This document shows positions 60,969 through 64,000 of a DNA stretch of 64,000 nucleotides, in pieces (the stretch's first letter is position 1; every line of letters starts with the position of its first letter). A program made the translations under genes and the position numbers. A model generated the notes under the pieces. It did no database searches and was not told where the DNA came from. It saw only the letters and a program-made list of their open reading frames with translations. The DNA is from an uncultured Pelagibacteraceae bacterium (GTDB taxonomy: Bacteria > Pseudomonadota > Alphaproteobacteria > Pelagibacterales > Pelagibacteraceae). Where the stretch lies: assembly GCA_902533445.1 (NCBI GenBank), contig CACALX010000003.1:71111-135110 (forward strand), written 5' to 3'.

Positions 60969-62252
60969 ATGAAGGTTTTAGATAGCAGTAAGAAAAATTT
61001 TGACAAATTATTAGATAATTTGTTAATGCAAAGAAAGAGAAAAGTTCAATCAAGTTTTGTTTCTGTCACTAACATTATTAAAGATGTTAAAAAAAATGGC
61101 GATAAAGCTTTATTAAAATATGAAAAAAAATTTAACAAAAATTCAGTAATCAAGCCTAGCTCAAATCAAATTCAAAAATCAATTCAATCATTAAATTCTA
61201 TTGTAAAAAAATCTATCGATACTGCTTACAATAGGATTTATAAATTTCATTCATTACAAAAGTTTAAAAATATTTCTTACACTGATAAATTTAAAAATAA
61301 ACTTGAGTATAAATATATACCATTAGATTCGGTTGCAATTTATGTGCCTGGTTCAACTGCATCCTATCCATCTAGTGTGTTGATGAATGCAGTTCCAGCT
61401 ATTGTTGCTGGTGTAAAAAGAATAGTTATGATCAACCCAGGCTATAAAGGAAAACAAAATCCTGCAGTCTTATATGCTGCTAAAAAATGTAAAATTAAGG
61501 AAATTTATTCAATTGGCGGACCTTCTGCTATTGCTGCAGTCTCTTATGGAACAAAAAAAATTAAAAAGGTTGATAAAATTGTAGGACCTGGAAATGCTTA
61601 CGTTGCAGCTGCAAAAAAAGAAGTTTTTGGAGATGTTGGAATTGAGGGTATGACCGCCGGTCCTTCTGAGGTTACAATAGTTTGTGACAAGTATTCAAAT
61701 CCAGAATGGGTTGCAAGCGATTTAATAGGACAAGCAGAACATGATTATCTCGCACAGTGCATATTAATTTCAAAAGATAAAAACTTATTTAATAAAGTTA
61801 AAACTGAAATAATTAAACAATTAAAAGAAATTCCAAGAGGGTCTATTGCAAAGAGAAGTTTGCAAAATAATGGAATTTTAATGCATGTAAATTCAGATAA
61901 AAAAATTATCAATATTGTTAACAAAATAGCTCCAGAGCATTTAGAGTTAAATGTTAAAAACTATAAATCTATTGTTTCAAAAATAAAAAATTCAGGATCG
62001 ATTTGTTTAGGAAAATATGCCGTTATGGCTATGACGGATTATAATGTTGGTTCAAATCATGTTTTACCAACTAATGGATCAGCAAAATACTCTAGTGGTA
62101 TAAGTGTAAACGAATTCTATAAAAGAATTTCATACATAAACCTATCAAAAAAGGGTATTGAAAGTCTTGGACCATCAGTTATAACACTTGCAAATTACGA
62201 AGGCCTGGTTGGGCATGCTCAATCAGTATTAAAAAGAATAAGGAGAAAATAA
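60969..62252 (+). CDS. hisD: Histidinol dehydrogenase
   Basis: [71 protein letters not shown]. Confidence 0.98.
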
Positions 62253-62474: not shown

Positions 62475-62549
62475 GGCTGAGTAGCTCAGGAGTAGAGCAG
62501 AGCCCTGAAAAGGCTTGTGTCGGAGGTGCGAATCCTTCCTCAGCCACCA
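62475..62549 (+). tRNA. tRNA-Phe (anticodon GAA), CCA encoded, noncanonical T-loop TGCGAAT and D-loop AGGAGTA
   Basis: GGCTGAG-TA-GCTC-AGGAGTA-GAGC-A-GAGCC-CTGAAAA-GGCTT-GTGTC-GGAGG-TGCGAAT-CCTTC-CTCAGCC-A-CCA. Confidence 0.95.
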
Positions 62550-62630: not shown

Positions 62631-62843
62631 ATGAGTACACTACAAGGTAAAATAAAATGGTATAATGGTAAAAAGGGATATGGCTTTATAGAGAGAGACG
62701 ACAAAGAGAAAGATGCCTTTGTACATGCTTCAGCCGTAAAAGCTGCTGGAATGAGATTTCTTAATGAAGGTGATAAACTTGAATTCACATTAGAAGACGG
62801 TCCTAAAGGTCCTTCTGCAGTAAATTTAAAAAAAATAGACTAA
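62631..62843 (+). CDS. cspA: Cold-shock protein (CspA family)
   Basis: GKIKWYNGKKGYGFIERDDKEKDAFVHASAVKAAG. Confidence 0.96.
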   Translation: MSTLQGKIKWYNGKKGYGFIERDDKEKDAFVHASAVKAAGMRFLNEGDKLEFTLEDGPKGPSAVNLKKID

Positions 62844-62859
62844 TTTTCTTAAAATTTCC

Positions 62860-62903
62860 AAAGGACGTTACTTCTACATTTAATAGATTAACGTCCTTTT
62901 TTT
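62860..62903 (+). terminator. Rho-independent terminator after cspA
   Basis: AAAGGACGTTA ... TAACGTCCTTTTTTT: perfect 11-bp stem plus T-tract. Confidence 0.9.
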
Positions 62904-63005
62904 ATTTAAGCCTTGAATATTAATAATTTTTGTCTAAAACGCTGCTCATGAATATAAATATTATATACAGAATTACTTATAGAAGTACTCACAGAAACTG
63001 GTTCC

Positions 63006-63021
63006 ATAGCCATTAGGCTAT
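63006..63021 (+). other. Small hairpin ATAGCC-ATTA-GGCTAT followed by a T/A-rich run (weak terminator-like)
   Basis: 6-bp perfect stem and 4-nt loop between cspA and tRNA-His. Confidence 0.4.
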
Positions 63022-63076
63022 TTATTTATATTATAATTTTCATTCCACATAAAATAAGATAATAACTAAAGGATAA

Positions 63077-63150
63077 GCTTTGGTGGTGAAATAGTATCAC
63101 GTCGGTTTGTGGATCCGAAGTCGTAGGAGCGTAACCTACCCAAAGTACCA
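63077..63150 (+). tRNA. tRNA-His (anticodon GTG), CCA encoded, noncanonical elbow, G1:T72, A73
   Basis: GCTTTGG-TG-GTGA-AATAGTA-TCAC-G-TCGGT-TTGTGGA-TCCGA-AGTC-GTAGG-AGCGTAA-CCTAC-CCAAAGT-A-CCA. Confidence 0.93.
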
Positions 63151-63155
63151 CTAAA

Positions 63156-64000
63156 ATGGAAAAAGATAAAAAACTCAATCCTTCCTTACCATCTGGATTT
63201 GAAGATCGTTGGAATAAAAAATTAGTTTTAAAAAAACAACTTTTAAAAGTGATTGAAAAAAATTTTTTAAAATTTGGAGCTGAACCATTAGAGACACCTT
63301 CTTTTGAGATCAGCGAAAATATTGGTTCGTTTTTAGCAGAGGACGAGGATAACCCTATGTCTGATGTATTCTCATTCAAAGATGATGATAAAAATATTAC
63401 ACTTAGATATGATCTATCTAGTCCTTTAGCTAGATTTGTTGCTCAAAACAATCAAGAGCTTCCATCAATTTACAAAAGATATGCAATTCAGAATGTTTTT
63501 AGAAATGAAAAAGCAGGAAATGGAAGATACAGAGAGTTCATGCAGGCAGATTTTGATATTGTTGGAAATGTTAATTCAGCCCAAGCTAATGCAGAACTTT
63601 GTAATTTAATCTCAAGTACACTCTTAGATTGTGGTTTGAATAAAGATCAATTCACAATCAATATTAGTAACAGAAAAATAGTGCAAGGTTTGATTGATGA
63701 TTTAAAAATATCTGAAGATAAGCAATTAAAAGTAATTAGAGCTATTGATAAATTAGACAAACCTGGATTTGGTTTAAAAGGTGTTGAAGATCTTCTTAAA
63801 AAGGAGAGAAAAGATGTAAGCGGTGCAGTTACAAAAGGTGCTGATCTAACAGATGAACAAGCATCACAAATATTAAATTTCTTAAAAATAAAAAACTTAA
63901 AACAATTAAAAGAAAATTTAAAAAATCCATTGTCTCAGGAAGGAATTAAAGAGTTAGAGGACATTTTTGAAATTTTAGAATTTGGTTCTAATTTAGATCA
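63156..64000 (+). CDS. hisS: Histidyl-tRNA synthetase, truncated by window end
   Basis: MEKDKKLNPSLPSGFEDRW...TLRYDLSSPLARFVAQN...YKRYAIQNVFRNEKAGNGRYREFMQADFDIVGN. Confidence 0.95.
   Translation, partial: MEKDKKLNPSLPSGFEDRWNKKLVLKKQLLKVIEKNFLKFGAEPLETPSFEISENIGSFLAEDEDNPMSDVFSFKDDDKNITLRYDLSSPLARFVAQNNQELPSIYKRYAIQNVFRNEKAGNGRYREFMQADFDIVGNVNSAQANAELCNLISSTLLDCGLNKDQFTINISNRKIVQGLIDDLKISEDKQLKVIRAIDKLDKPGFGLKGVEDLLKKERKDVSGAVTKGADLTDEQASQILNFLKIKNLKQLKENLKNPLSQEGIKELEDIFEILEFGSNLD

Follow-up and report, generated by a model that had tools for sequence, protein, structure and literature searches.

Leader peptides that carry clusters of histidine codons precede hisS* and hisZ in Bacillus (PMC2965389), and leader peptides lie before the his operons of Firmicutes (PMC9413887). 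A second line of work concerns tRNA-His itself: A73, the loss of G-1 and a glycine-type histidyl-tRNA synthetase (HisRS) are common to SAR11, Rhizobiales and Caulobacterales, and have been published for SAR11 (PMC3937112; seven strains out of eight). The relevant passages of that paper make no mention of a linkage to hisS, of alleles or of elbow exchange, and the words 'operon' and 'synteny' are absent from the paper's text. Here we describe the tRNA-His(GUG) gene and the adjoining hisS in a 64,000-nucleotide stretch of DNA (the window) from an uncultured Pelagibacteraceae bacterium (assembly GCA_902533445.1, contig CACALX010000003.1, positions 71,111 to 135,110 of the forward strand). Our comparison suggests that a functional, sole tRNA-His quite probably heads a histidine-controlled operon, in the order leader, tRNA-His, hisS, hisZ, hisG. 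SAR11 cells are among the most abundant cell types of the ocean and have few regulators. Provisionally, an operon that combines a histidine leader with an exchanging tRNA gene appears to be undescribed in the open-licence literature; the identity traits of the tRNA are published.

The initial annotation noted that the tRNA-His gene, ending at 63150, stands on the same strand as hisS, which starts at 63156; the coordinates and every unusual base were as it described. The linkage that it proposed is real and family-wide. In a synteny check, tRNA-His lay directly before hisS in 112 of 112 Pelagibacteraceae loci (the set to which counts of loci refer below), with a gap of 3-6 nt in 104, indicating that this placement is not due to chance. 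The two genes were adjacent in none of the sister family's five loci and in none of 28 other alphaproteobacterial hisS loci; they were adjacent in one further Pelagibacteraceae member of the alphaproteobacterial sample. Directly 3' of hisS come hisZ and hisG in five relatives (G080, G012, G075, G077 and G061; family assignment made in G080). HisZG performs the first step of histidine synthesis. No conserved Shine-Dalgarno site was seen upstream of hisS, which, together with the A-rich 4-nt spacer, suggests that tRNA 3' processing may release a nearly leaderless hisS mRNA.

About 60 nt upstream of tRNA-His, in the interval that follows the csp terminator, we found a short open reading frame (ORF) with clustered His codons. 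Such a leader ORF is present in essentially all family loci, with the consensus THRHHFHAGC.LAI. Short ATG-ORFs with at least two His per ten amino acids occurred in 110 of 111 distinct upstream regions, and with at least three in 84 of 111; after dinucleotide shuffling the frequencies were 5.3% and 0.7%, respectively, and the reverse strand gave 2 of 111. Besides the His cluster, variants of the peptide (MIKKVIINRETHRHHFHAGCKLAI, MKKIELNKLAIKSTLRKTLEGTSRVAHTHFHAG and MKNIVLNHTHHHTHAKHGLGN) have little in common, and both CAT and CAC are in use as His codons. By eye, the leaders of loci L052 and L108 are of the usual type (..STHRVCLHSL); that of L112 has a single His. Sites resembling TTGnnT-N16-TAAAA lie 5' of the leader ORF in many relatives, at the position matching the promoter-like sequence of the window; the consensus is weak, and a sequence scan did not list the window's site. 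When the leader region was compared with Rfam, His leader and T-box included, only the tRNA scored, and a known Rfam leader family was rejected because no match in the leader region went beyond chance. A paper on structured RNAs of Pelagibacter mentions neither hisS, histidine nor leader peptides (PMC2704228).

The leader ORF ends in a hairpin, P2; no other terminator-like site turned up in 62800-63200. In nearly all relatives the start of the hairpin and the first base of the final leader His codon are 1-3 nt apart, and the stem varies in a compensatory manner (GCTGGC/GCTAGC, ATAGCC/GGCTAT, ATGGCT/GGCCAT, GCAAGC/GCTTGC, GCTAAGC/GCTTAGC). Judged by the geometry of the sequence, the 5' arm of the hairpin would be masked by a ribosome that stalls on one of the later His codons, and would stay free if the stall came at the first. 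We infer from this arrangement that leader and hairpin form a histidine leader-peptide attenuator controlling tRNA-His, HisRS and HisZG. Transcription would start just 5' of the leader ORF. Scarcity of His-tRNA would stall the ribosome on the later leader His codons; with the 5' arm covered, the polymerase would read through into tRNA-His, HisRS and HisZG. When His-tRNA is plentiful, the hairpin would form and transcription would stop. By analogy with known his attenuators, the operon would thus be derepressed under histidine shortage, and, if the attenuator controls it, the circuit would be sensing what its first gene produces. A conserved His leader that would control the tRNA being sensed would also explain the joining of tRNA-His to hisS.

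Several points weigh against such an operon, which is proposed from sequence. The U-tract of the hairpin, TTATTTATAT, is an imperfect one, and the leader showed no clear antiterminator hairpin as an alternative; for these two reasons the sign of the regulation is only something we infer. The conserved A+T-rich element beside tRNA-His, a possible second promoter, could free the tRNA from control by the leader. The count of a sole tRNA-His in the window's genome rests on a genome that is 87% complete. Single-sequence folds give an A+T-rich helix from the start of the leader to past the hairpin in many of the loci but not in every one. The promoter-like element, and the compactness of SAR11 genomes, would also fit an account by streamlining only, in which tRNA-His precedes hisS by happenstance, has its own promoter and follows a short ORF of no regulatory role. 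This we consider quite unlikely, since the grouping of His codons, and the hairpin that goes with the last of them, persist where the leader peptides are otherwise unalignable, and since histidine-synthesis genes, hisZ-hisG, come next.

The histidine-controlled operon requires tRNA-His to be a working tRNA. Its body (63077-63147, plus strand) scored 50.6 bits with the Infernal/Rfam tRNA model (E 7e-8, gathering cut-off 29) and is followed by CCA at 63148-63150; an ARAGORN scan did not accept a tRNA-His at 63077. Reading of the sequence gives G1:U72, A73, A at position -1 and the anticodon GUG. Apart from a U31-U39 mismatch, all stems pair. The D-loop is AAUAGUA (A18, G19) and the T-loop AGCGUAA (A54, G55, C56, G57, U58). 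Of the 30 tRNA hits in the genome of the window, this is the only tRNA-His. Likewise, the complete genome of a relative with the same allele (G065, one contig) yielded one tRNA-His among 32 tRNA hits, two of which were unread and were taken to be Leu-GAG and Thr-GGT from their size and synteny; a separate canonical tRNA-His was thus found in neither genome. CCA is encoded in 109 loci and not in L092, L093 and L094 (genomes G017, G037 and G040).

The initial annotation had called this tRNA aberrant. The odd bases are indeed there, but they differ in standing: only G1:U72 (112 of 112 loci) and A73 (111 of 112) are constant, and the elbow bases are allele-specific and compensated. Position -1 is A, T, G and C in 46, 42, 20 and 4 loci, so that an encoded G-1 is not conserved. 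Position 18 could be placed in 26 elbow variants; 9 of them combine A18 with G55 and 17 combine G18 with U55, without exception. Positions 54-58 are U-A or A-U, once G-G, and G19-C56 is retained in all alleles except that of L132. The same loop pair as in the window's tRNA-His, T-loop AGCGTAA with D-loop AATAGTA, is found in tRNA-Val(GAC) of the same genome (loci L003 and L023), and A18/G55 also in some tRNA-Phe. This coordination of the elbow changes argues for working tRNAs, and the strict rule of A18/G55 versus G18/U55 offers evidence from nature as to the elbow pairs that are workable in a bacterial ribosome. A mimic of a tRNA, or a tRNA in decay, with a role in regulating hisS comparable to the operator mimicry of the thrS type, would account for the position next to its own synthetase gene, the rejection by ARAGORN and the elbow bases that depart from the consensus. 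It is nevertheless extremely improbable, because this is the only tRNA-His found in the complete G065 and in the window's genome, its stems pair save U31-U39, 18-55 and 54-58 co-vary, and tRNA-Val(GAC) of the same genomes has the same loops.

The synthetase matches this tRNA in type. HisRS was assigned to its family with the G080 orthologue (98% identical), which scored 344 bits with TIGR00442 against a cut-off of 287. The motif-2 loop of the window's HisRS is RNEKAGNGRYREF, with Gly replacing the Gln of ancestral types (RGERAQ.GRFREF), as in other derived alphaproteobacterial enzymes. A search across Alphaproteobacteria gave a high-scoring group of other families (E<1e-75) with the Gly loop, and the remainder scored lower; the window's enzyme goes with this derived group, a split by E-value and motif rather than a class-wide tree, and a grouping with G-1-dependent enzymes was not seen. 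HisRS of the sister family (f2) also has the derived Gly loop. In genome G159, the tRNA-His of L132 (L327, 1501-1571) has G73, the T-loop AGAGTTA and the D-loop AAAATTA, which lacks G18-G19; the adjoining HisRS has an altered motif-2 loop, RNETSKTGRGRYRSF, and this tRNA-His is the only one found in that genome. Many of the genomes are drafts and most are species representatives; such oddities of single genomes are leads only.

The elbow of the window's tRNA-His is the mark of one allele, type I, of at least seven. The 112 loci contain 35 distinct tRNA-His sequences, which fall into at least seven very different groups. The window's tRNA-His is 53-64% identical to those of G012, G071 and G075, in contrast to most other tRNAs, which are above 90%. 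On the hisS tree (74 genomes) the allele group changed at least 15 times, where five changes would suffice. The exchanged tracts span about 75-120 nt and leave hisS unmoved. For instance, L115 and L113 share 96.7% identity in hisS and 91.7% upstream, and 57% in tRNA-His; L058, at 81% identity in hisS, has a tRNA-His 100% identical to the one in L115. L034 and L068 differ in the tRNA alone (78%), the preceding 45 nt being 100% and the wider flanks about 94% shared. The conserved flanks mean that homologous recombination can replace tRNA-His alone. An essential, apparently single-copy tRNA is thus replaceable by a version of about 57% identity, with its synthetase and flanks unchanged.

The initial annotation had further suggested that tRNA and synthetase might be transferable as a unit, and a self-contained cassette that co-evolves and travels from genome to genome would agree with the two genes always being together and both having derived identity traits, and with L125, L132 and L095, where hisS and tRNA-His are both unusual for their neighbourhood. 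We give such a cassette little credence. The tRNA types are scattered over the hisS tree (15 changes), and in two pairs of loci (L113/L115 and L090/L122) hisS is 95-97% identical and tRNA-His just 45-57%. L125 is the converse: its tRNA body is type I, the acceptor stem differs and the HisRS is only 54% identical. Transfer as a unit is unsupported, and contradicted as a general rule, because the tRNA-His alleles move independently of hisS.

As to where the divergent alleles come from, they might be phage-borne or remoulded from other tRNAs of the same genome. Both origins seem unlikely: the type I allele has no match in annotated phage records, and the other alleles have only partial phage matches of 75-79%, short stretches aside. 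Remoulding from other isoacceptors was rejected, as the non-His tRNAs of five genomes reach at most about 74% identity with the tRNA-His alleles. A check of 398 further genomes in the phylum gave no type I allele. Tentatively, and as one possibility, the locus may unite a self-sensing loop, in which an attenuator that reads charged tRNA-His controls its own tRNA, the synthetase and the first enzyme of histidine synthesis, with a multi-allelic tRNA-His kept diverse by selection, for example by phage or toxin systems that attack tRNA, and swapped between strains in tracts of some 100 nt, its alternative elbows changing in a coordinated way. The His leader peptide, hisZ-hisG downstream and the exchange of alleles are additions to what the initial annotation described.

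Table 1. Features at the tRNA-His locus, in window coordinates.
Feature	Coordinates	Strand	Remarks
tRNA-Phe(GAA)	62475..62549	+	D-loop AGGAGTA, T-loop TGCGAAT, A18/G55; neighbour, outside the operon
Promoter-like TTGAAT-N16-TAAAAC	62913..62940	+	just 5' of leader ORF; would yield a near-leaderless transcript
Leader ORF MNINIIYRITYRSTHRNWFHSH, then stop	62948..63016	+	His codons at 62990, 63005, 63011
Hairpin P2, ATAGCC-ATTA-GGCTAT then TTATTTATAT	63006..63021	+	terminator-like; begins within a leader His codon
A+T-rich element TTTNAAT..TAAGATAA / TAGTATAAAA in relatives	63033..63064	+	conserved among relatives; could be a second promoter
tRNA-His(GUG), type I allele	63077..63150	+	A18/G55 and A54/U58 elbow, CCA encoded
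Spacer CTAAA, 5 nt	63151..63155	+	tRNA-His 3' end to hisS ATG; AAAA in most relatives
hisS, histidyl-tRNA synthetase	63156..64000, runs beyond window end	+	464 amino acids in total; derived Gly motif-2 loop

Other tRNAs of the neighbourhood also vary. The part of the window from 1666 to 62549 holds tRNA-Leu-CAA, Arg-ACG, Ser-GGA, Thr-GGT and Phe. In five compared genomes, the Arg(ACG), Thr(GGT), Phe, Ser(GGA) and His tRNAs were among the most divergent, often at 53-77% identity, and most tRNAs outside this 62-kb stretch were above 90%; the stretch looks like a region of tRNA replacement. The tRNA-Phe gene, which lies between infA and csp, has very different versions in some close relatives (L036, L048, L051 and L072), and in L036 the infA and csp flanks are replaced along with it. 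Mosaicism is also seen around hisD (60969-62252) and hisS: compared with the window, G022 and G161 have 93-94% identity in GyrB, 48% in HisD and 58% in HisRS.

In its short His-clustered ORF and terminator-like hairpin before hisS, hisZ and hisG genes, the locus resembles the hisL-type attenuators of E. coli (hisL), Bacillus and Firmicutes. It differs from them in that tRNA-His is the first downstream gene, and in having a single hairpin, which starts at the final His codon; an antiterminator was not recognised, and Rfam gave no match. Its tRNA and synthetase resemble the G-1-less tRNA-His/HisRS pair of Caulobacter, Rhizobiales and SAR11 in the absence of G-1, in U72 and A73 and in the Gly motif-2 loop. 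Compared with the relevant passages on that pair (PMC3937112), what sets the Pelagibacteraceae apart is the hisS-linked operon, the many tRNA-His alleles and the exchanged elbows. Departures from G18-Psi55 and T54-A58 are shared with mitochondrial tRNAs and tRNA-Pyl; here, in contrast, a coordinated A18/G55, together with A54/U58, occurs in ordinary free-living bacteria, in an essential and apparently sole isoacceptor.
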